Virus record (IMG/VR): IMGVR_UViG_3300020810_000291
Coordinates: 1 to 39,453 of that record
Origin: a virus
Length of the DNA: 39,453 nt
Reading direction: 5' to 3' (one strand)
In this document: piece by piece, positions 6,805-39,269 of the stretch
Position numbering within the stretch: position 1 is the stretch's first letter
Layout: each line of letters starts with the position of its first letter
Position numbers and translations under genes: made by a program
Notes under the pieces: model-generated
Told to the model about the DNA's origin: nothing
Database searches by the model: none
What the model saw: the letters and a program-made list of their open reading frames with translations, nothing else

Positions 6805-8385
6805 ATGGCAGCATCATTAGACGGCGTCTTAATTAAAAAGGCGAATAAACAAGAAACATTTACTGAAGAGCAATTAGCAGATCTAATGGCATGTATGGAT
6901 CCTGAAACAGGATACTTACATTTTGCAAAGAATTTTGCATATATTCAGCATCCAGTAAAAGGTAAGTTACTATACAACCCTTTTAAATATCAACTCGGAC
7001 TAATGGATAGTTACCATAATTTTAGATTTAACATAAACATGATGCCTAGGCAGACAGGTAAAACTACATGTGCTAGTATATACCTTACATGGTATGCAAT
7101 GTTTGTACCTGATCAAACTATACTTATTGCTGCACACAAGTATACAGGTGCTCAAGAGATTATGTCTCGTATACGCTTTGTTTACGAGAGTTGTCCTGAT
7201 CATATTAGAGCAGGTGTAACATCATATAACAAAGGTAGTATTGAATTTGAAAACGGTAGTAGAATAGTTTCGCAAACAACAACAGGCAACACAGGACGTG
7301 GTATGTCAATTTCGTTATTATACTGTGACGAGTTTGCGTTTGTGCAGCCAAACATTGCAGAAGAGTTTTGGACTTCGATATCACCTACACTAGCAACAGG
7401 TGGTCGTGCTATTATTACAAGCACACCAAACTCAGATGAAGATACGTTTGCTACTATTTGGAAACAAGCAGAAGACAAGTTTGATGCACACGGCAATGAA
7501 AACGATGTTGGCACAAACGGATTTCATAGTTTTAGATCAGAGTGGCACGAACATCCTGATCGTGACGAGAAATGGAAAGAGGAAGAAATTGGACGTATCG
7601 GTGAAGAGAAGTTTCGCCGTGAATACGGCTGTGAATTCTTAGTATTTGACGAAACTTTAATTAACTCAATTAAACTAGCATCTATGGGAGGCAAAAGTCC
7701 GTTAGTAAATATGGGACAAACACGTTGGTATAAAAAACCAACAGATGATTGCACATATGCAGTTGCATTAGATCCGTCAATGGGAACTGGTGGCGATAAT
7801 GCTGCTATACAAGTATTTGAATTACCCAGTTATGAACAAGTTGCAGAATGGCAACATAACACAACGGCTATACCTGGACAGATCAGAGTGTTGGCGGACA
7901 TCTGTAATTATCTTGTTTCTGAGACTGGTAATCCAAACGGAATTTACTGGAGCGTGGAGAACAATGGCATAGGCGAGGCTGCGCTTATCGTTATAAACGA
8001 CTTCGGTGAAGAGAACATTCCAGGTTTGTTCGTCAGTGAGCCTATCCGCAAAGGACACGTTCGTAAATTCCGTAAGGGTTTTAATACTACGCATAGTACA
8101 AAAATTACAGCGTGTAGTAGATTAAAAACAATGATCGAAAATGACAAAATGATTATACACAGTAAGCCGTTCTTATCTGAACTTAAAAATTATATTGCTA
8201 CCGGATCTAGTTATCAAGCTAAACTAGGACAAACCGATGATTTAATTAGTGCAACTCTTCTTGCGATCAGGATGATGGCAGTACTTAAAGATTGGGATCC
8301 TAGAATCTATAACACATTTACTCAAGCTGAAAATATGGACGACTATGAACCTCCAATGCCGATCTTCATAAGTACCAATTATTGA
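6805..8385 (+). CDS. 17: Terminase large subunit gp17
   Basis: A 526-residue packaging motor ATPase with nuclease. ATPase motifs: Walker A PRQTGKTT (residues 81-88), Walker B with catalytic glutamate LLYCDEF (171-177), coupling motif STP (206-208). The nuclease domain starts near YAVALDPSMGTGG (318-330), where D323 is the expected first metal-binding aspartate, with later conserved acidic positions in the NGIG region and the TDDLISATLLA end. Length is a little under T4 gp17 (610). The ATG comes 5 nt after a late box without a ribosome site. It cuts and pumps the concatemeric genome into the prohead with gp16. Confidence 0.95.
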   Translation: MAASLDGVLIKKANKQETFTEEQLADLMACMDPETGYLHFAKNFAYIQHPVKGKLLYNPFKYQLGLMDSYHNFRFNINMMPRQTGKTTCASIYLTWYAMFVPDQTILIAAHKYTGAQEIMSRIRFVYESCPDHIRAGVTSYNKGSIEFENGSRIVSQTTTGNTGRGMSISLLYCDEFAFVQPNIAEEFWTSISPTLATGGRAIITSTPNSDEDTFATIWKQAEDKFDAHGNENDVGTNGFHSFRSEWHEHPDRDEKWKEEEIGRIGEEKFRREYGCEFLVFDETLINSIKLASMGGKSPLVNMGQTRWYKKPTDDCTYAVALDPSMGTGGDNAAIQVFELPSYEQVAEWQHNTTAIPGQIRVLADICNYLVSETGNPNGIYWSVENNGIGEAALIVINDFGEENIPGLFVSEPIRKGHVRKFRKGFNTTHSTKITACSRLKTMIENDKMIIHSKPFLSELKNYIATGSSYQAKLGQTDDLISATLLAIRMMAVLKDWDPRIYNTFTQAENMDDYEPPMPIFISTNY

Positions 8386-25872: not shown

Positions 25873-27066
25873 ATGCAGTTAAAAAATATTGAACAGTGTC
25901 TTGAACTCCTTGCTAATCTTCAAAAAAGTAATCTTTCTTTATTAAAAGAAGATTATACAATAATGAGTAGTATTGCTAGACAAGTATTTCGAGAGAAAGC
26001 ATTAACTGACAGACAATTTAATCTAATGTCTAATAAATTGTTAGATTATAAAGAACAGTTTGAAATAAACGGCTATGAAAATTTTGACGAAGCAATACAT
26101 ACGCTACGACAACCTTTGAGAGAAATAGATCGTAGTAAATATATAAAAATTGTCGATGAACCAAATTCAAAAGAACGTTGGATTAAAGTAAGATTTCCGT
26201 TTAGTAAAAAATTAATTGCTAAATTACAAAGCGTTGTTTATAAAATATCAAGTCAAAAATATAGACATGCTGCAAAAAGCCACGAGCATTTCTTTTTGTT
26301 TGATGAAAAGAATGTCCGTCTATTATTAGATGTTTTTTCTCAAAACGACTTTACAATACAAAATGACTTAATTAAATTTTATAATAAAATTAATAAAGTT
26401 TTTAACAACCCACAAGATAATATTCCTTGCATATTTGATAACACTATAAAAAATGTTTCTGAAAATGTACTAGACATTATAAAAAAAGATGTACCAGATC
26501 TTAATGTTAAAAAAGTTTGTGATCGAAGATTTAGATATGGTATAACAAATATAAATTACTTGCCTACCAACGATAGTTTAGAAGAACATATTATTTCAAG
26601 AGAAAGTACTGACGTTGTAATTAAGCCTTCGGTATATAATCTTGATACTGTAGTATCGTCAATTTTATCTTTAGATAGATTTCCATTATTAATTGTAGTT
26701 AGTGCAGACAATCCATACCGTGATTTAGTTAGTTTACATTCTGCATTATCTAAAGTTATTGACAATTCAAAACAAAGTGTATTGTTTAGATTTGACAAAT
26801 TTGACATCGGTAACGAATATATAAAACATCACAGTTTAAATAATTGGGTTGACAGAAATACAAAAGTAGTGTATATTATAGATAACAAATTTCCTAAAAT
26901 TTTATTATCAAGTGATTGGAGACCAATTACATCGTTAATATTTAGATCTAACGTTGGTAGTCAGCGTAAACATATAATGAACTATATTGATCAAACATCA
27001 GATCTTATATTGTTCAGAGAAGAAACAATATCACCGTTTAGAAAGTATGCATATGGCAAGTTGTAA
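25873..27066 (+). CDS. Unknown 397-residue early protein before uvsW
   Basis: A 397-residue protein without a recognised family. The N-terminal third is helical and basic; residues about 100-160 contain WIKVRFPFSKKLIAKLQSVV and an HFFLFDEKNVRLLLDVF segment, a layout like the small domain preceding the helicase core in some SNF2-type proteins (HARP-like), but there is no Walker motif. The middle has LPLLIVVSADNPYRD and the end TKVVYIIDNKFPKILL-, DWRPITSLIF- and SDLILFREET-like strands, suggesting a Rossmann-type second half. It is the first gene behind a perfect sigma70 promoter and overlaps uvsW by 14 nt, so it is early and tied to recombination. A helicase partner or host-directed role would be a guess. 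Confidence 0.6.
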   Translation: MQLKNIEQCLELLANLQKSNLSLLKEDYTIMSSIARQVFREKALTDRQFNLMSNKLLDYKEQFEINGYENFDEAIHTLRQPLREIDRSKYIKIVDEPNSKERWIKVRFPFSKKLIAKLQSVVYKISSQKYRHAAKSHEHFFLFDEKNVRLLLDVFSQNDFTIQNDLIKFYNKINKVFNNPQDNIPCIFDNTIKNVSENVLDIIKKDVPDLNVKKVCDRRFRYGITNINYLPTNDSLEEHIISRESTDVVIKPSVYNLDTVVSSILSLDRFPLLIVVSADNPYRDLVSLHSALSKVIDNSKQSVLFRFDKFDIGNEYIKHHSLNNWVDRNTKVVYIIDNKFPKILLSSDWRPITSLIFRSNVGSQRKHIMNYIDQTSDLILFREETISPFRKYAYGKL

Positions 27067-28516
27067 ACTAATCATCGAAGATGAAGTAAACATTAAGATT
27101 GAAGGTCTTGATGTAGACGTGCGTCGAAAACTAGCAAATGCTCTTAAGTTCGAAGTGCCGTATGCAAAGCACATGCCGCAATATAAACTAGGACGTTGGG
27201 ATGGCAAAGTTGCTTTCTTTGGTATCGGTGGCACAGGTTATGTTAATCATCTCAACGTTGTACAAGAAGTACTTGCTAAGAACAAAGTGCAAATTGTCGA
27301 CATTGAAGATCGAAGACACCCTATACAATTAGACTTTAAACCAGTAACAGAAAACTACTGGAAGGATCAAGGCGTTGTATGGCCTGAGGGTCATCCAGCA
27401 GAAGGTGAAGATATTATTCTACGTGACTATCAAGTAGAAGCAATTAATAACTTTATTAATAATCCACAGAGCTTGCAACAGATTGCTACTGGCGCAGGTA
27501 AAACAATTACAACAGCAACGTTGTCACATATAAGCGAGCCGTATGGTAGAAGTCTTGTGATTGTTCCTAACAAGTCGTTAGTAGAACAAACAGAAGAGGA
27601 CTATATTAACTGCGGCTTGGACGTAGGTGTGTACTTCGGCGATAGAAAGAACCTAGGTAAGACTCACACTATATGCACTTGGCAATCCTTAAATATTTTG
27701 GACAAGAAGCATAAGGATGGCTCAGCAGTGTTATCACTTGCAGAGTTCCTAGAAGGTGTTAGCACTGTTATCGTCGATGAGGTACACCAAGCAAAGGCAG
27801 AGGTTCTCAAGAACCTGCTTACACGCAACCTACGGAATGCACCCATTCGTTGGGGACTTACCGGCACAGTGCCAAGAGAGAAGTTTGAGTTTGAAAGTAT
27901 TCATGCTTCGCTAGGCCCAGTCATTGGACAAATTAGTGCTAAAGAACTACAAGACAAAGGTGTGCTTGCAGCATGCCATGTTAATGTAGTGCAGTTAATA
28001 GACACAGTAGCACACGCAGGTTATCAAGAAGAATTAAAATATCTAACAACAAATACAGAACGATTAGAGTACATAGGCAAAATATTAAACACAGTAAAAA
28101 ATTCAGGCAACACACTAATATTAGTAGACAGAATTAGTGCAGGTGAAGCACTAGCAGAACTTATACCAGACAGTACGTTTGTAAGCGGTGCTGTTAAAAA
28201 CAAAGACAGGAAAGAAACATATGACACAATTCGTGAAGGAACTAACGAAGTTATTATCGCAACCTATGGAGTTGCTGCCGTGGGTCTTAACATTCCTCGT
28301 ATCTTTAACTTGGTTCTTTTGGAGCCTGGGAAGTCTTTCGTAAGAGTAATTCAGTCAATTGGTAGAGGTGTAAGAAAGGCAAAGGACAAAGACTTCGTGC
28401 AAATATGGGACTTGACATCGACATGCAAGTTTGCGAAGCGGCACCTTACACAGCGTAAAAAGTTTTACAAAGAGGCGCAGTACCCATTTACCATAGAAAA
28501 GGTAGATTGGAAATAA
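27053..28516 (+). CDS. uvsW: UvsW helicase
   Basis: A 487-residue superfamily 2 helicase that remodels recombination intermediates and R-loops in T4. I used ATG 27053 (MASCKLIIEDEV), which aligns with the UvsW N-terminal domain; the longer frame start at 26987 lies inside the previous gene. The N-terminal domain has YKLGRWDGKVAFF (44-56), a UvsW mark. Helicase motifs: DYQVEAI (Q/Ia), ATGAGKT (145-151), DEVH (242-245; DECH in T4), GLTGT (III), and IQSIGRGVRK (VI). The C-terminus ends in WDLTS and a lysine-rich part. Length is close to T4 UvsW (503). Confidence 0.95.
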   Translation: MASCKLIIEDEVNIKIEGLDVDVRRKLANALKFEVPYAKHMPQYKLGRWDGKVAFFGIGGTGYVNHLNVVQEVLAKNKVQIVDIEDRRHPIQLDFKPVTENYWKDQGVVWPEGHPAEGEDIILRDYQVEAINNFINNPQSLQQIATGAGKTITTATLSHISEPYGRSLVIVPNKSLVEQTEEDYINCGLDVGVYFGDRKNLGKTHTICTWQSLNILDKKHKDGSAVLSLAEFLEGVSTVIVDEVHQAKAEVLKNLLTRNLRNAPIRWGLTGTVPREKFEFESIHASLGPVIGQISAKELQDKGVLAACHVNVVQLIDTVAHAGYQEELKYLTTNTERLEYIGKILNTVKNSGNTLILVDRISAGEALAELIPDSTFVSGAVKNKDRKETYDTIREGTNEVIIATYGVAAVGLNIPRIFNLVLLEPGKSFVRVIQSIGRGVRKAKDKDFVQIWDLTSTCKFAKRHLTQRKKFYKEAQYPFTIEKVDWK

Positions 28517-29632: not shown

Positions 29633-29891
29633 ATTGATACCTGGCGAAGCTCTTATATACGAAAGAGCCGACGGAGTTGTTTATGCTAGATACAGAGATC
29701 CTCCGCACAGAGATATACCACGCTGGATTGTAGGCGGAGAACCCGGTGCAATATCTAAAGCACAAGGTACTATATTTGGATATGACGAATGGCGTGAAAT
29801 GCAAATTTGTGCAGATAAAAATCCTGCACTAAAAAAACAATTAGATAGATTAGTTATTATGTATTATACCATAAAGGATAGCACAGAATGA
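29613..29891 (+). CDS. Small conserved phage protein (non-ATG start)
   Basis: A 92-residue frame. There is no ATG at the front: GTG 29613 (AGGAA 9 nt upstream) or TTG 29634 (start of IPGEALIYERADGV) are the options. The segment IPGEALIYERADGVVYARY, then DIPRWIVGGEPG and LKKQLDRLVIMYYTIKD, resembles a small conserved protein I associate with marine T4-like phages. Function unknown. It overlaps the cupin by 20 nt with the GTG, and kdsA starts 4 nt before its end as ATGA. Confidence 0.6.
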   Translation: MLARKNKLIPGEALIYERADGVVYARYRDPPHRDIPRWIVGGEPGAISKAQGTIFGYDEWREMQICADKNPALKKQLDRLVIMYYTIKDSTE

Positions 29892-30661
29892 GAATTATTG
29901 CAGGACCGTGTCAACATGAATCGTTAGCGCAATCTGCTGCTATTGCAAAAGAATGTAAACGTGTATGTGATAAATTAGGTATTGAATATTACTTCAAAGC
30001 AAGTTATGACAAAGCAAACCGTACAAGTATAAATGGTATCCGTGGTATGGGTATGGAGGCAACACTTACAGACTTTCGTACTTTAAAAGAGCAATACAAT
30101 GTGAAAACACTTACCGATGTACACGATGTAATGCAAGTAAAAGCAATAACAAATCAATATAATGATGCAGTTGATGTTCTACAGATTCCTGCATTCTTAT
30201 GTAGACAGACTGATCTTATTACAGCAGCATGTGCAACAGACAAAGTAGTAAACATCAAAAAAGGACAATTCCTTGCACCGTGGGATGTACCTAGTATACT
30301 TACTAAAACTATAAGTGCTAGAGAAGTCTGGATAACAGAAAGAGGAACTAGTTTTGGATACAATACCCTTGTTGTTGATTATTCAGGTCTTGATTGGATG
30401 CTCCGCAATCTTGATGTGCCTATTGTGTATGATTGTACACACTCTGCCCAAAAACCCGGCGGGCAGGGTAGTAGCTCAGGCGGGAATCGTGATCTTGTTC
30501 CTGGGTTCGCTCGTAGCGGGGCTGCTCTCGGGATTTCAAATTTCTTCCTCGAAGTACACGAACTGCCTGATAACGCACCATCAGACGGTCCGAATATGCT
30601 TCGACTAGAAGACTTCGAGGAGGTGGTACGTGACATCGTCGGCTATTCTTATACCCGCTAG
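29888..30661 (+). CDS. kdsA: 3-deoxy-8-phosphooctulonate synthase (Kdo-8-P synthase)
   Basis: A 257-residue enzyme joining phosphoenolpyruvate and arabinose-5-phosphate to give Kdo-8-phosphate. AGPCQHES (5-12), FKASYDKANRTS (37-48), TDVHD (76-80) and PAFLCRQTDL (101-110) are family marks, as is DCTHSAQKPGG. The cysteine in GPCQ (C8) takes the place of the metal-binding cysteine of the Aquifex-type, metal-dependent class; the E. coli class has asparagine there. Length is about 20 short of the usual 270-285. It overlaps kdsB by 32 nt. It supplies the Kdo branch of the phage glycan or redirects host envelope precursors. Confidence 0.92.
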   Translation: MRIIAGPCQHESLAQSAAIAKECKRVCDKLGIEYYFKASYDKANRTSINGIRGMGMEATLTDFRTLKEQYNVKTLTDVHDVMQVKAITNQYNDAVDVLQIPAFLCRQTDLITAACATDKVVNIKKGQFLAPWDVPSILTKTISAREVWITERGTSFGYNTLVVDYSGLDWMLRNLDVPIVYDCTHSAQKPGGQGSSSGGNRDLVPGFARSGAALGISNFFLEVHELPDNAPSDGPNMLRLEDFEEVVRDIVGYSYTR

Positions 30662-31316
30662 ATACCATAGCACACGCTTTCCAGGTAAGCCTCTATGTAT
30701 GCTAGATGGCAAGACTATGATACAACGTGTAGTTGAAGCATGTAAGCAAACAGACTATGATGTGTATGTGCTTACTGATCACAAGTTAATTGCACAAGCA
30801 GCTCAAGCAGCCGGTGCAGAGTTTTTTATCGATAGCGAACCATACGAAAATGGCACCGAAAGATGTGCTGGTGCTATACGAAGTCGTAAGTTTAACGAGT
30901 ACGATCAGTTTGTTAACGTACAAGGCGATATGCCTGACGTAACACCAGAGTGTATTGATAAGTGCATGTGGCACTTAAAGAACTATCCAGTGACAACAGT
31001 GTTTACAGAAATGCCAGAAGCAATGCAAAACGATCCTAACTCAGTCAAGTTAGTAAGAGCAGGTGACCAAGCACTATGGTTTGGTAGAGGTATGACCGGT
31101 TACGGCGACTGGCACCTAGGTGTGTATGGATATAAGAAAAATCCTTTACAGATGTATCATCAATTAGACGTAACAAAAGAAGAACGTGTAGAAAAATTAG
31201 AACAACTACGCTGGCTAAAAAGTGGTTGGCAAATTGGTTGTTTGAGTGTATACTTTAAAGGTATAGAGATAAACTCACCTGAGGATGTAGACGCTTGGCA
31301 CAAAAATTACCAATAA
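30630..31316 (+). CDS. kdsB: CMP-Kdo synthetase (3-deoxy-manno-octulosonate cytidylyltransferase)
   Basis: A 228-residue cytidylyltransferase that activates Kdo with CTP. The signature ILIPARYHSTRFPGKPL (6-22) binds the nucleotide; NVQGD (96-100) carries the metal aspartate, followed by MP where EP is usual. ENGTERCA (73-80) is the Kdo-side loop. The start is GTG 30630, placed 6 nt behind a strong GAGGAGG; the frame overlaps kdsA by 32 nt. Length is near the usual 245-255. No kdsC phosphatase is visible in the window, so the host must remove the phosphate of Kdo-8-P. Confidence 0.9.
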   Translation: MTSSAILIPARYHSTRFPGKPLCMLDGKTMIQRVVEACKQTDYDVYVLTDHKLIAQAAQAAGAEFFIDSEPYENGTERCAGAIRSRKFNEYDQFVNVQGDMPDVTPECIDKCMWHLKNYPVTTVFTEMPEAMQNDPNSVKLVRAGDQALWFGRGMTGYGDWHLGVYGYKKNPLQMYHQLDVTKEERVEKLEQLRWLKSGWQIGCLSVYFKGIEINSPEDVDAWHKNYQ

Positions 31317-31747
31317 AAGATATACTTGCTGCGGTTGACATGGGCGCAAAGAATGTTTGGGATGACTTGTCAAACGAAGAACGTAAACAAGTATCGTTTT
31401 GGCTTCTTAACCGCTATATAAGCGTCATACAAGGGTCTCGAGAAAAACAAGAGCTCGCAGTGTTCAAAACAAATGAATACTATAACAAGAACTGGAATGT
31501 GCTTGGTATGAAGCATCCAAAGTTACAATGGCAGTTACTATGCCAAGCAGGTAACACAGGAAAGATAGAATATCATCCTTGGATAGGATTTAAGAAAAAA
31601 GGCACCACTACTAATAACGGAACAAAGTTATTAGAAAGAATTTACCCAAACATGAAACAAGATGAGATAGAATTACTTGCTAGTCAATATACAAAAAAAG
31701 AACTCAAACAGTTGGCTGAAGAGCATAGCATTGACATCAAGCTCTAA
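31295..31747 (+). CDS. Conserved marine T4-like phage protein (TTG start)
   Basis: A 150-residue protein. TTG 31295 follows GAGGA by 9 nt and keeps the conserved KLPIKDILAAVDMG segment; the first ATG at 31340 would remove it. Later parts: SNEERKQVSFWLLNRYISVIQG, HPKLQWQLLCQAG, KIEYHPWIGFKKK and a helical end IELLASQYTKKELKQLAEEH. I recognise the pattern from marine T4-like phages but no function. The frame overlaps kdsB by 22 nt. Confidence 0.6.
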   Translation: MAQKLPIKDILAAVDMGAKNVWDDLSNEERKQVSFWLLNRYISVIQGSREKQELAVFKTNEYYNKNWNVLGMKHPKLQWQLLCQAGNTGKIEYHPWIGFKKKGTTTNNGTKLLERIYPNMKQDEIELLASQYTKKELKQLAEEHSIDIKL

Positions 31748-32423
31748 ACCATATGTATGTGAATACTGCGGCAGCGGATATGTAAGAGAAAAAACTCTTG
31801 CAGCGCATATGTGTGAAAAGAAACGCAGGGCACTGCAAAAAGATGAGAAGAGAGTACGACACGGCTTTTATGCATTTCAAAGATTCTATAAATTAAGTGC
31901 TGGTGCTAAGAAAGAAAAGACATATCAAGACTTTTGCAGTAGTCAATATTATAATGCATTTGTAAAGTTTGGTAGTTTTATTAACAACGTAAAGCCTTTG
32001 TATCCTGAAAAGTATATTGATCATGTTGTCACAAGTGGTGTAAGATTAGATCACTGGTGCAGAGAAGAAATGTATGAATCGTATGCAGTTGACCTTATTA
32101 GAAAAGAAGGTGTCGAAACTGCATTAGAAAGAAGCATTACTACAATGACAGAATGGGCTGAAGAAAATAAACCAGCAACATGGAATCAGTATTTCTTTCA
32201 TGTAAGCACAAACAGAGCTGTGTGGAATATAAAAGATGGAAAGATATCACCTTGGTTAATTCTAAACTGTGCAAGCGGTAAAGAGTTGTTAGGAAAGTTT
32301 AACGACGAGCAATTAAAGATGATATATAACGTACTTGATCCAGAACACTGGGCATTAAGATTTAGAAGACAAAAAAATGATTTAAGTCTTGTTAAAGAAA
32401 TTGTAGCAAAGAGTAGATTATGA
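31731..32423 (+). CDS. Zinc-finger protein (TTG start)
   Basis: A protein of about 230 residues. No ATG occurs before the zinc finger; TTG 31731 (MTSSSKPYVCEYCG, with GAAGAG 8 nt upstream) is preferred over the TTG at 31677. The finger is C-x(2)-C-x(12)-H-x-C: CEYCGSGYVREKTLAAHMC. The rest is helical, with RHGFYAFQRFYKLSAG, FVKFGSFINNVKPLYPEKY, WCREEMYESYAVDLIRKEGV and NAVWNI-type segments. I associate such proteins with marine T4-like phages, probably nucleic-acid or protein binding; function unknown. It overlaps the previous gene by 17 nt and the next by 4 nt (ATGA). Confidence 0.65.
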   Translation: MTSSSKPYVCEYCGSGYVREKTLAAHMCEKKRRALQKDEKRVRHGFYAFQRFYKLSAGAKKEKTYQDFCSSQYYNAFVKFGSFINNVKPLYPEKYIDHVVTSGVRLDHWCREEMYESYAVDLIRKEGVETALERSITTMTEWAEENKPATWNQYFFHVSTNRAVWNIKDGKISPWLILNCASGKELLGKFNDEQLKMIYNVLDPEHWALRFRRQKNDLSLVKEIVAKSRL

Positions 32424-32992
32424 AAAAATCATATAGCCAAGCATTTCAAGATAAATTTGCTTATGACAATTGTCGAAAGAAAACATATATTGAAATAGGC
32501 GCAGCAAAGCCTGTGAGTAAAAACAATACACATTTGTTAGAACAAAAGTATGGCTGGAAAGGTTTTAGTATTGAAAAAGATAAAGTTTTTGAGAAAGAAT
32601 GGGTAGATTCAAAAAGAGAAAATAAAATATACTGGGCCGATGCAATTAGGTTTAATTACAAACAAGCTGCTATAGAAAATAATTTACGTAAGCATATTGG
32701 ATATCTTAGTTGCGATATTGATCCGCCAGAGAATACTTTTCGTGCATTAAAAAAAGTTATCAGTTCAGGGTTTACATTTGATGTTATAACTTTTGAAGAT
32801 GACAGATATCATGCTAGTGGAAACTGGCATAAAGTTGCTGAGCAATATTTAAAGAATTATAATTATAAAGTAGCAGTAAGAGATGTTACAACAAAAAAAG
32901 GACAACTGTTCGAAACATGGTTTATAAATGATAATTATTATTTTGAAACCATTGACTATATAGATTGGAAAGGAAATTTAGAATGGAGTTAG
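32420..32992 (+). CDS. FkbM-like methyltransferase
   Basis: A 190-residue SAM methyltransferase of the FkbM type. It starts with SYSQAFQDKFAYDNC, then TYIEIGAAKPVSKNNT (about 22-37; motif I in the E-I-G-A form), KYGWKGFSIEKD (about 43-54), LSCDIDPPENTF (about 97-108; the D-x-D/E region) and VITFEDDRYHA (about 122-132). FkbM enzymes O-methylate sugars in glycans, in line with the sugar genes nearby. The SQAFQD opening is a mark of this group. It overlaps peptide deformylase by 10 nt. Confidence 0.78.
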   Translation: MKKSYSQAFQDKFAYDNCRKKTYIEIGAAKPVSKNNTHLLEQKYGWKGFSIEKDKVFEKEWVDSKRENKIYWADAIRFNYKQAAIENNLRKHIGYLSCDIDPPENTFRALKKVISSGFTFDVITFEDDRYHASGNWHKVAEQYLKNYNYKVAVRDVTTKKGQLFETWFINDNYYFETIDYIDWKGNLEWS

Positions 32993-33495
32993 TTTATCAT
33001 CCTAATAAACTATTAGAAACAAAATGTGATGAAGTTGATATTGAGAATATTAATTTTGATCCAAAGGAGATAAAGGCTAAAATGGTTGCATTTATGCTTA
33101 ACAATAATGGCATAGGATTAAGCGCAAACCAAGTTGGTATAACAGACAAACGTTTATTTGTTATGGCAGACATTAATGATAAGTCGCAAAGTATTATATG
33201 TATCAATCCAACTATTCTTCAGCATACTGCTGAACATGTTATTATGGAAGAAGGCTGCATGAGCTTTCCAGGTACTTGGTTAAAAGTAAAGCGTCCAAAA
33301 GAAATACTTGTACACTTTTACGACGAAGACCTAGTAGAACAAGTATTTAAGATGGATGGCCCAAATGCTAGAATATATCTACACGAAATGGATCATACAC
33401 TGGGTATCACTTTTAAAGATCGTGTAACAAGACCGAAGTGGGAACTGGCTGAACGCAAACGGAAGAAACTAGAAAAAAGAACACAGGCAGCATAA
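32983..33495 (+). CDS. def: Peptide deformylase
   Basis: A 170-residue deformylase that removes the formyl group from new proteins. All three motifs are present: GIGLSANQ (43-50, variant of GxGLAAxQ), EGCMS (90-94) with the metal cysteine, and HEMDH (134-138) with the two metal histidines and the catalytic glutamate. I used ATG 32983 with AAAGGAA 8 nt upstream; the longer frame start at 32965 lies in the previous gene. Peptide deformylases are known auxiliary genes of marine cyanophages. The C-terminus is strongly basic. Confidence 0.95.
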   Translation: MELVYHPNKLLETKCDEVDIENINFDPKEIKAKMVAFMLNNNGIGLSANQVGITDKRLFVMADINDKSQSIICINPTILQHTAEHVIMEEGCMSFPGTWLKVKRPKEILVHFYDEDLVEQVFKMDGPNARIYLHEMDHTLGITFKDRVTRPKWELAERKRKKLEKRTQAA

Positions 33496-33499
33496 ACAA

Positions 33500-34060
33500 A
33501 TGCCTGATATCGATATTGACTTTGCAGATAGAGATATAATACTTTCTCAAATCAAACACAGGGTTGCAAAGCTAGATACAGACAAAAAACATAACACCGG
33601 TGTGTATGTAACTGAGTGTCCTCACAACCCTGTTGACAATCTGTCAACAGTTGATTACAAGACCGCAGAAGAACGTGGATACTTTAAACTAGACTTTCTC
33701 AACGTAAGCATATACAAAGACGTTACAAACGAAGCACACTTAAACACATTAATGAAGAAGGAACCATTATGGCAACTATTGGAATACAAGGACTTTTCAG
33801 ATCAAGTGTTTCACCTAAACGGGCACAACGAACTATTGCAGCAATTGAAGCCTACTTCGGTAGAACAGTTAGCAGCAACACTAGCGATAATACGGCCTGC
33901 GAAGAGGCATCTTGTCAACGAAACATGGCAAACCATAGAAACAGAAGTTTGGAAGAAGCCTAAAGACGGCAGTTACTATTTTAAAAAAGCACACGCTGTA
34001 AGTTATGCAATGGCGTGTGTAGTGCATATGAATCTAATATGCGAACAACTAAATACTTGA
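33500..34060 (+). CDS. Miniature DNA polymerase III alpha-like protein
   Basis: A 186-residue protein that keeps the catalytic palm landmarks of bacterial Pol III alpha: PDIDIDF (2-8; D3, D5 and D7, two of which fit E. coli D401 and D403), YFKLDFLNV (61-69; D65 in the place of D555), LAIIRPAKRHL (like the ALxRPG fingers strand) and FKKAHAVSYA (161-170, like the FxxSHxxxYA motif). The PHP nuclease, most of the palm and fingers, and the OB domain are missing (full enzymes exceed 1100). Whether it is an active nucleotidyltransferase is unknown. It is not obviously a fragment, since the ends are intact and it is translated from its own ATG. Confidence 0.65.
   Translation: MPDIDIDFADRDIILSQIKHRVAKLDTDKKHNTGVYVTECPHNPVDNLSTVDYKTAEERGYFKLDFLNVSIYKDVTNEAHLNTLMKKEPLWQLLEYKDFSDQVFHLNGHNELLQQLKPTSVEQLAATLAIIRPAKRHLVNETWQTIETEVWKKPKDGSYYFKKAHAVSYAMACVVHMNLICEQLNT
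34048..34055 (+). promoter_or_regulatory. Late promoter box (ACTAAATA), 4 nt before ATG
   Basis: ACTAAATA lies in the final codons of the Pol III-like gene, 4 nt (CTTG) before ATG 34060, the start that best fits the aligned glycosyltransferase family. No Shine-Dalgarno is present. Confidence 0.5.
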
Positions 34061-36006: not shown

Positions 36007-36984
36007 ATGAGTACCGTATCTGATACATTATCATCATTCTTGCCAGGCAAGCGCAAAACAACTCCGAGTGGGTGGATTGCGTTTAACGCACCTTGTTGTA
36101 CACACAACGGCGAGTCAATTGATAAAAAGGCTCGAGGCGGCCTCATAACAGAAGGTGATACAGTCAGCTATCACTGCTTCAATTGCGGCTATAAATGCAG
36201 TTGGCAACCAGGTAGACCATTTTCACATAAGATGCGTAAGTTATTCCAATGGTTAGGAACACCTGATGATATAATCACAAAGGTTGCACTTGATGTGATG
36301 AGAGAGAATGAAGGTGTACAAGTACAAACTCGTATTGCCGAGATGCCTACATTTGATTCAGTACCTCTTCCAGACGATGCTATTAAGATTGCTGACATTA
36401 AAGATTTTAATAAATTCAGCATGGGTGTGTTAGAATATATGGCACAGCGTGGACTGAATATGGATGATACTTCATACTATTGGTCACCAAGTTTAGGGTA
36501 TCGAGATAGACTAATTGTACCATTCTTCTACGAAAGCAGAATTGTAGGATGGACTGCTCGAAGTGTACTTCCGGATAAGAAACCTAAATACTTAACGGAA
36601 GTACAACCCGGCTTTGTCTACGGATTAGATGAGCAAAGTTACAATAAAATATTTACAATCTTATGCGAAGGACAGATTGATGCTATACATGTAGATGGAT
36701 GTGCATTAGGTGGTAGTGAAATATCTGATCAACAAGCAATGCTTTTAAACCAATTGCAAAAAGAAATTATTGTTGTACCCGATAGAGATAAAGCAGGTAG
36801 TAAATTAGTTGAACGTGCAATTGAATTAGGATGGAGTGTTAGTTTACCAAACTGGCCATCAGAGATAAATGACATTAGTGATTGTGTTGGTAAATATGGT
36901 AGGCTATATACGTTATACAGTATTGTAAACAATTCTGAAAGATCACCGTTAAAGATAAGATTGAAAGCAAAAAAATGGTTTTGA
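36007..36984 (+). CDS. 61: DNA primase gp61
   Basis: A 325-residue primase that makes primers for lagging-strand synthesis with helicase gp41. Zinc-binding residues: C30, C31, H33 in PCCTH and C57, C60, C64 in HCFNCGYKC. The TOPRIM domain has CEGQIDA (221-227) and VVPDRDKAG (257-265), whose aspartates bind metal. Length matches T4 gp61 (342). It opens the replication block and lies upstream of gp41, with a carbamoyltransferase and tiny membrane genes between. Unlike gp32 and uvsX, it has no ribosome site. Confidence 0.92.
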   Translation: MSTVSDTLSSFLPGKRKTTPSGWIAFNAPCCTHNGESIDKKARGGLITEGDTVSYHCFNCGYKCSWQPGRPFSHKMRKLFQWLGTPDDIITKVALDVMRENEGVQVQTRIAEMPTFDSVPLPDDAIKIADIKDFNKFSMGVLEYMAQRGLNMDDTSYYWSPSLGYRDRLIVPFFYESRIVGWTARSVLPDKKPKYLTEVQPGFVYGLDEQSYNKIFTILCEGQIDAIHVDGCALGGSEISDQQAMLLNQLQKEIIVVPDRDKAGSKLVERAIELGWSVSLPNWPSEINDISDCVGKYGRLYTLYSIVNNSERSPLKIRLKAKKWF

Positions 36985-37481: not shown

Positions 37482-37818
37482 TATAATAAAACAACCACAA
37501 ATGCTGCAAGGTAATAGTGCTCAACCAATGAATGAAGGTGATAAGTCAGTGCAGGGCAACGCGAAGAATGCTCCGTTCAATCCTCACACTTATCCTAATT
37601 CAGAAAACGTTACACCGCCTGTAAACAAAGCAGCAGTACGTGTAGTAGAACCGTCTACAAGAGCAGCCGTAAGAATGAGCCCTACAGAAGTTTATCATAA
37701 GAAAAAAGAACAGATGGACTACGAAATGCGACAAGCTATTTTAGCAGAATATCGTAAGGATGGATCAATTAAACCTCCTGAGCTTGATACAGGAACAAAC
37801 GTAGATATAGAAGTATGA
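37471..37818 (+). CDS. Small disordered protein (115 aa)
   Basis: A 115-residue protein rich in polar residues and proline, likely disordered in the first 60 residues; the part VRVVEPSTRAAVRMSPTEVYHKKK-like (about 57-80) and MRQAILAEYRKDGS (about 86-99) is more ordered. AAAAGAAG stands before the ATG. It overlaps the carbamoyltransferase by 4 nt (ATGA). Function not recognised. Confidence 0.55.
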   Translation: METNIIKQPQMLQGNSAQPMNEGDKSVQGNAKNAPFNPHTYPNSENVTPPVNKAAVRVVEPSTRAAVRMSPTEVYHKKKEQMDYEMRQAILAEYRKDGSIKPPELDTGTNVDIEV

Positions 37819-39269
37819 TTACCTGGGGTATAAGTGCTAATAGCCACGACGCTGCCTTGGCAGTCTTTACTGATGAAGGATTAGAATTTGCTAGTCATAG
37901 CGAGCGCTTTAGTGGCATAAAAAATGATGCACACTTAAATAGAGGAATAATAGATTATGCAAAACAATGGGGAGAACCAGATGAAGTTATCTGGTACGAA
38001 AGACCTCTCGTCAAAACATGTAGGCAACTCTATGCCGGACAAGGATTTCGGTTTCGCGAGAACAATATTAGTCAGTATCTTCAACGGTATGGGATACGTA
38101 CTCCTATTAGGTATACTGATCATCATCTTGCCCATGCTGCTGCCGGCTATTATACTAGTCGCTTTACAGAAGCCTGCTGTGTGGTTATCGACAGCATTGG
38201 AGAATTTAAGACTCTTAGTACTTGGATGGCAAAGGGTACTGAAATTAAAGAAACATTTAGCCAGTCGTACCCACATTCCGTTGGGCTATGGTATTCCGCG
38301 ATCACGCAAAGAATTGGACTAAAGCCACAAGAAGATGAGTACATACTAATGGGTATGGCAGCATATGGCGATCCAAATAGATTGTATGCTGATATTAAAA
38401 ACGACTTCTTTGGTAACGGAAAGGCTCTGATAAATTTTAAACGTAACTTACACCGAGGCTGTTTAGATTGGAGACCTGAACTTAATAGTATGCAGGATTT
38501 ATTTGACATTGCAGCAGCAACGCAAAAGATTTACGAAGAAGTATTAGATGACATACTAAGACACGCTAAAGCAAATACTACTTCAAATAATTTAGTATTA
38601 ATGGGAGGCTGTGCGTTAAATTGTTCAGCTAATCATATAGCATACAAACATTTTGGTAACGTATGGATAATGCCTAACCCGGGTGATTCAGGTAGTGCTA
38701 TCGGTTGTGTGCTTGCACATAAAAAAGAACATATGCCTATGGGACATACGTTTACAGGATATAACATAGAAGGAGAGTACCCAGTTGAAGAAACAATCAA
38801 AGAACTTGCCCAAACTGGCATCTGCGGAGTCGCGTCGGGTAGGGCAGAATTTGGCCCGCGGGCTTTTGGTAATCGGTCTTTGCTTGCTGATCCTCGTGGC
38901 AATGACATCAAAGACAGAGTCAATGTCATTAAACAACGACAACAGTTCAGACCTTTTGCTCCAGTAGTACTTAGAGAATACGCAGAAGATAATTTTGACG
39001 GATATACAAATAGTTTTATGCAGTTTACTTCAATCTGCAAACACCCAGATCGATACCCTGCAATTTGCCACGCAGACGGAACAAGCAGAGTACAAACAGT
39101 AGGTCCGAACGGAAGTGGTATACGACGACTGTTAGAGGCCTGGTACGAGCACACAGGATGTCCTATGCTACTTAATACAAGTTTAAATATCAAAGGTAAG
39201 CCTATTGTAAATGACTTGACAGATGCTAAAAACTTTGCTACAATGTACAACATAAAGGTGTGTTCATGA
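37815..39269 (+). CDS. Carbamoyltransferase (NodU/CmcH/TobZ family)
   Basis: A 484-residue carbamoyltransferase. The N-terminal part has GISANSHDAALAVF (5-18; H11 and D12) and TDHHLAHAAAGYYTS (101-115; H103, H104 and H107), the metal and carbamoyl-adenylate site of the Kae1-like domain; LMGMAAYGD and LMGGCALNC follow. The C-terminal YrdC-like region shows FGPRAFGNRSLLADPR and QQFRPFAPVVL, then MLLNTSLNIKGKPIV. It is shorter than typical NodU (about 570), with the usual end. Such enzymes move a carbamoyl group to a sugar, antibiotic or nucleoside hydroxyl. The gene sits between primase and helicase, with the gp41 ATG overlapping its stop. Confidence 0.9.
   Translation: MITWGISANSHDAALAVFTDEGLEFASHSERFSGIKNDAHLNRGIIDYAKQWGEPDEVIWYERPLVKTCRQLYAGQGFRFRENNISQYLQRYGIRTPIRYTDHHLAHAAAGYYTSRFTEACCVVIDSIGEFKTLSTWMAKGTEIKETFSQSYPHSVGLWYSAITQRIGLKPQEDEYILMGMAAYGDPNRLYADIKNDFFGNGKALINFKRNLHRGCLDWRPELNSMQDLFDIAAATQKIYEEVLDDILRHAKANTTSNNLVLMGGCALNCSANHIAYKHFGNVWIMPNPGDSGSAIGCVLAHKKEHMPMGHTFTGYNIEGEYPVEETIKELAQTGICGVASGRAEFGPRAFGNRSLLADPRGNDIKDRVNVIKQRQQFRPFAPVVLREYAEDNFDGYTNSFMQFTSICKHPDRYPAICHADGTSRVQTVGPNGSGIRRLLEAWYEHTGCPMLLNTSLNIKGKPIVNDLTDAKNFATMYNIKVCS

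Follow-up and report, generated by a model that had tools for sequence, protein, structure and literature searches.

The window, the whole 39,453-nucleotide stretch of viral DNA that we analysed, is a fragment of a phage genome and encodes T4-like UvsX, UvsY and UvsW proteins, a single-strand binding protein and a primase. Within this replication module lies an open reading frame which starts with ATG, ends with TGA and codes for a protein of 186 aa with the N-terminus MPDIDIDF (Table 1). The first-pass annotation had described a gene intact at both ends in a tightly coded unit, and this description was accurate. The packing is indeed tight: a peptide deformylase gene (32980-33495; PF01327, E=2.4e-38) lies directly upstream, and the ATG of the next gene overlaps the stop codon (TGATG). 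In relatives from IMG/VR the frame upstream of the MPDIDIDF methionine closes after 0 to ~37 codons of variable sequence, sometimes at once, which makes this start credible.

The gene order in the window is UvsX, UvsY, UvsW, PHROG 11758, the C2H2-like protein of PHROG 11058, the 186-aa protein and primase. It retains the framework of the replication modules of RaK2, PAC2 and Phosso, in which the order is UvsX/RecA-like, UvsW/helicase, small genes, the homologous gene, a small gene on the reverse strand, primase and helicase. Pseudomonas phage PAC2 has an annotated C2H2 protein immediately upstream of the homologous gene, and in Atu_ph07 this gene lies a few genes ahead of primase/helicase. The module of the window carries inserted sugar-metabolism and glycosyltransferase genes as well as the deformylase. 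For example, positions 29888-31316 and 37815-39269 hold a KdsA-like gene of the DAHP synthetase family, a KdsB-like cytidylyltransferase and a Nol-like carbamoyltransferase, which represent sugar/LPS-type cargo within a phage replication module. Between 15794 and 25856, amid glycosyltransferase and nucleotide-sugar genes, seven ORFs (starts 15794, 16542, 17552, 18950, 22416, 23237 and 24939) have a motif like EIRKHTDRPIxVR and resemble an expanded paralogous family; none of them had a PHROG match at E<=0.01.

Table 1. Position and evidence for the features of the window discussed in the text.
Feature	Coordinates	Strand	Evidence
UvsW-like helicase, upstream of the C gene	26987..28516	+	
Neighbour gene, PHROG 11058, C2H2-like zinc finger	31677..32423	+	PHROG and Pfam searches
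Putative C subunit of split minimal DNA polymerase III alpha (PHROG 11778)	33500..34060	+	ORF and translation, 186 aa; PHROG profile; fold search
PDIDIDF, metal-binding: D3 = E. coli DnaE D401, D5 = D403 (D7 = D405)	33503..33523	+	Alignment
KHNTGVY, counterpart of E. coli DnaE GKHAGGVVI (~residues 509-517)	33587..33607	+	hhalign and MAFFT; H31 and G34 invariant
KLDF: K63 = DnaE K553, D65 = DnaE D555 (third catalytic aspartate)	33686..33697	+	Alignment
RP (R132, P133) in the finger segment LAIIRP, counterpart of DnaE LVALFRP	33893..33898	+	Sub-threshold DNA_pol3_finger match; invariant
FKKAHAVSYA finger helix: H165 = DnaE steric-gate H760; K in place of N757	33980..34009	+	Alignment
DNA primase (gp61-like, Toprim), downstream of the C gene	36007..36984	+	PHROG 47, E=1e-33; Pfam Toprim_2

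Three motifs had led to the initial comparison of this protein with the palm and fingers of bacterial DNA polymerase III alpha: PDIDIDF (residues 2-8), LDFLNV (64-69) and FKKAHAVSYA (161-170). All are present and collinear with that enzyme, and D3, D5 and D65 do fall on its three metal-binding positions, which in E. coli DnaE are D401, D403 and D555. The catalytic identity of these DnaE residues and the steric-gate role of H760 are known (PMC8485763). The protein has the catalytic Asp triad and the finger His of full bacterial Pol III alpha (DnaE/PolC). The PHP, thumb, full finger, beta-binding and tail domains, joined in one chain in DnaE/PolC, are absent from its 186 aa, and the estimate that about 85 percent of the enzyme is missing agrees with the 1160 aa of E. 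coli DnaE.

The aspartates of homologs and the predicted fold, both suggested for checking by the first-pass annotation, favoured Pol III alpha. All 58 diverse homologs compared keep D3, D5, D7, K63, D65, R132, P133, K162, K163 and H165, and in a larger set D3, D5, D7 and D65 are invariant (87/87). Invariance of the catalytic Asp, Lys and His extends to homologs of only ~35% identity. The AlphaFold2 model of the protein, built with 58 aligned sequences, had a mean pLDDT of 92.4 and a pTM of 0.73. In a fold search of the PDB the 13 best matches were all bacterial Pol III alpha/replicative polymerase chains (5lew, E=5.9e-4; 4iqj, 3e0d, 7pu7, 2hpi, 2hqa, 5fkv and others). Probability was 1.00 for the top eight, and the matches ranking below the 13 were noise. 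The query-normalised TM-scores of 0.35-0.52 fit a half-domain without its other half.

Sequence searches with the single protein were less telling. The PDB search gave matches to mycobacterial DnaE only, all sub-threshold, and the NCBIfam and Pfam searches gave sub-threshold matches only, one of them to DNA_pol3_finger over residues 104-136; on such a search alone the case would have stayed open. The PHROG search matched the protein to PHROG 11778 'DNA polymerase' (E=9.7e-59) and to PHROG 405, a DNA polymerase profile of 1190 positions (E=2.2e-8). Relatives occur in 63 phage records, mostly RaK2-like and PA5oct-like jumbo phages and also Atu_ph07, Phosso and SCTP-2, and are encoded by at least 548 IMG/VR stretches. 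Together, these matches and relatives show that the similarity to Pol III alpha is not due to chance. In the marine group the proteins have a uniform length (185-190 aa) and a uniform start. The window gene is under purifying selection, with dN/dS ~0.12 (0.076/0.62) against its nearest relative. In the Agrobacterium phage Atu_ph07 the annotated start of the homolog FDI40_gp074 (L083:7950-8525), at 8031, comes after the codons for the catalytic aspartates. Translation from an ATG in the same frame at 7950 yields MKNIPDIDIDF, so the database entry is without the metal-binding motif.

Does this protein stand alone, as was first thought? The GRGSxxxS strand-loop of Pol III alpha binds the incoming nucleotide. 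It is absent from the 186-aa protein, which begins right at the PDxDxDF strand, and precisely this missing half is encoded by another conserved gene of these phages, so the designation stand-alone has to be dropped. This second ORF (~160-190 aa, PHROG 11127, here called N, with the relatives of the 186-aa protein called C) usually lies far from the C gene and is present in RaK2, PAC2, Phosso, Atu_ph07 and marine contigs; the phages with the two genes are large and for the most part marine. When related phage genomes were searched with Pfam DNA_pol3_alpha (PF07733), the N ORFs corresponded to profile positions 18-98 and the C gene of the marine contig G001 to positions 96-196. The C-terminal sequence of the N proteins, directly before the stop codon, is GVGRGSSVASYVLxLIGVH...LDxxEFL(R/K/N). 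By hhalign against E. coli DnaE, the alignment of the N profile ends at N393 (E=7.3e-6), and that of the C family starts at M399, with blocks also at 504-769. When N and C were concatenated and compared with DnaE, all 11 pairs kept G361, R362, G363 and S364 together with D401, D403, D405, K553, D555, F756, K758 and H760.

Several parts of DnaE are without counterpart in either half: the PHP domain, everything past ~785, most of the segment matching 420-503, which we take to be the thumb region, and ~100 finger residues (about 660-750), R709/R710 included. The N-subunit model had low confidence (pLDDT 66), and its top three Foldseek matches were to Pol III alpha with weak E-values (0.03 to 0.9), which we used as weak support only. 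Fused or adjacent N and C genes were not seen among the loci fetched. Joining through a split intein was considered and rejected on inspection: N ends with EFLR/K/N and a stop codon, C starts at or near PDIDIDF, and there is no additional flanking domain. The N gene was not found in the 39-kb record of the window itself; we infer from its relatives that this phage has one.

The joint distribution of the halves was followed in 22 records, of which 13, contigs or genomes, are 200 kb or longer and have at least one half. Both halves were found in 12 of these 13, and the remaining one had C only; contigs below 200 kb had one half or the other, as expected for fragments. A family B polymerase was present in every genome with both halves (12/12). 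The exception, the 262-kb contig G002, has C, no detectable N and no family B polymerase. Since the family B polymerase gene lies ~25-60 kb from N in most other genomes, G002 is most simply explained, and likely, as a contig from which a segment is missing. A dedicated proofreading exonuclease (PF00929) is no constant partner, being above the cut-off in 4 of 13 records.

The separation of N and C is 33-231 kb in linear coordinates; in two marine contigs it would be 10-26 kb if they are circular. Sequence distances of N and C across the 12 genomes are correlated (Mantel r=0.82, p=0.0001), which indicates shared descent with no sign of independent exchange of the halves; this correlation is mostly phylogeny and therefore no evidence that N and C bind each other.

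A scan of bacterial and archaeal genome assemblies gave eight matches to the C gene, all on MAG contigs. One of these contigs, of 335 kb, also carries the N gene and a family B polymerase and is most likely a phage sequence binned into a MAG. The contigs PBPT01000016.1 and PBPT01000082.1 (L267/L274) are phage-like, carry the C gene and were binned into a Neomarinimicrobiota MAG; the same assembly has a 1145-aa open frame matching the N profile, presumably a normal DnaE.

We consider it highly probable that the C gene encodes the C-terminal subunit, with the metal-binding palm and part of the fingers, of a minimal Pol III alpha that is specific to phages and split in two. The N subunit, ending at the equivalent of DnaE N393, would bring the GRGS phosphate/dNTP-binding motif, and the C subunit, starting at the equivalent of M399-P400-D401, would contribute K553, the finger helix with H760 and all three catalytic aspartates. 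Together they would probably form a heterodimer with the palm completed at the interface and, with it, a complete C-family active site of ~360 residues, thumb-less, PHP-less and tail-less. Such a small C-family polymerase would probably be poorly processive. Its role is most likely accessory to the family B replicase, in repair, gap filling, primer extension or synthesis of one strand. The N and C genes are not adjacent, the N model is of low confidence, and G002 and the record of the window are without N, all of which speak against a split enzyme. The grip on DNA and the processivity are also unaccounted for by it, because the thumb and most of the fingers, with R709/R710, are without counterpart.

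Of the explanations offered by the first-pass annotation, the derivation from a Pol III palm and fingers stood, while both the decoy and the repurposed nucleotidyltransferase acting by itself became less likely than a subunit of a split polymerase, since C is without GRGS and a separate gene supplies it. The C protein could act alone, as a repurposed nucleotidyltransferase or a DNA-binding factor, with the N gene as an unrelated second relic. C is a separate intact gene with three aspartates, its model is confident by itself, and the N and C genes are unlinked, all as expected from a protein working alone. Nevertheless, we regard this as improbable: the nucleotide-binding GRGS strand missing in C is invariant in N, the two proteins meet at DnaE 393/399, and they occur together in nearly all large contigs.

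We hold it just as improbable that C is a catalytically dead regulatory remnant, or a decoy which binds the host clamp, the clamp loader or the phage replisome. A dead enzyme would agree with the missing thumb, PHP and tail and with the lack of any counterpart to R709/R710, but the catalytic residues are invariant even in distant homologs. Moreover, the beta-clamp and tau binding sites of Pol III alpha are in its C-terminal region, which is lost here; as a decoy, C would thus retain the wrong portion of the enzyme. A decaying piece of host dnaE acquired by the phage would likewise resemble a shortened host gene; this origin is barely conceivable for a distinct family found in phages of many hosts, with the low dN/dS and the uniform length and start described above, whose matches in bacterial and archaeal assemblies are all on MAG contigs.

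If the halves cooperate as a split polymerase, then a C-family active site can be built from two proteins of less than 200 residues each, without thumb or PHP, which bears on the evolution of the bacterial replicase core. In that case abundant marine phages would also use two polymerases that are unrelated to each other. It is possible, though we put it forward only tentatively, that N and C make up the smallest C-family DNA polymerase (~360 residues), with a task of its own next to the family B replicase, and represent an early or independently reduced form of the bacterial replicase core.

In comparison with E. coli DnaE, N and C together keep D401/D403/D555, K553, H760 and GRGS, and the C model folds as palm and fingers. 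In contrast, DnaE has 1160 aa in one chain and the halves have ~360 aa in two; the PHP, thumb, most of the fingers, the beta-binding, OB and tail parts are absent from N and C, and K replaces N757.

The idea of a split enzyme has been in print since 2021, when Iyer et al. (PMC7824862) predicted that jumbo phages of group 2.2 have a minimal Pol III alpha in two parts. In their system N (NTP-binding) and C (Mg2+/template-binding) are separate proteins encoded at distant loci of T4-like jumbo phage genomes, alongside a family B polymerase. Our searches matched this system to PHROG 11127 (N) and PHROG 11778 (C). The window protein belongs to the same C family, and its separate gene likewise covers the Mg2+-binding and template-binding subdomains of Pol III alpha. 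The distant N gene and the family B polymerase also recur in the related genomes counted above, the record of the window itself being 39 kb. The window differs as a marine, uncultured phage fragment, and the C proteins of the marine group start exactly at MPDIDIDF, whereas those of the isolates have short N-terminal extensions. The window gene is a further, marine member of the kind already described in 2021.

Single halves have been recorded elsewhere. A 'truncated Pol III alpha' of 172 aa (CBB_328) was annotated in Pectobacterium phage CBB (PMC5259590), and a marine jumbo phage survey of 2022 found PF07733 in 51.9% of its cluster PGC_A (PMC9123017). By Pfam domain or size both are very probably the N subunit of the same system; these papers noted only the one half and did not treat it as part of a split enzyme. 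In the open-access literature we found no experimental test of the split enzyme. To this small and conserved system our analysis adds the exact complementarity of N and C and the residue-level completeness of the active site that they would form jointly. It also shows that the thumb region is lost, counts how often the halves co-occur, marine lineages included, and provides a confident C-subunit model.
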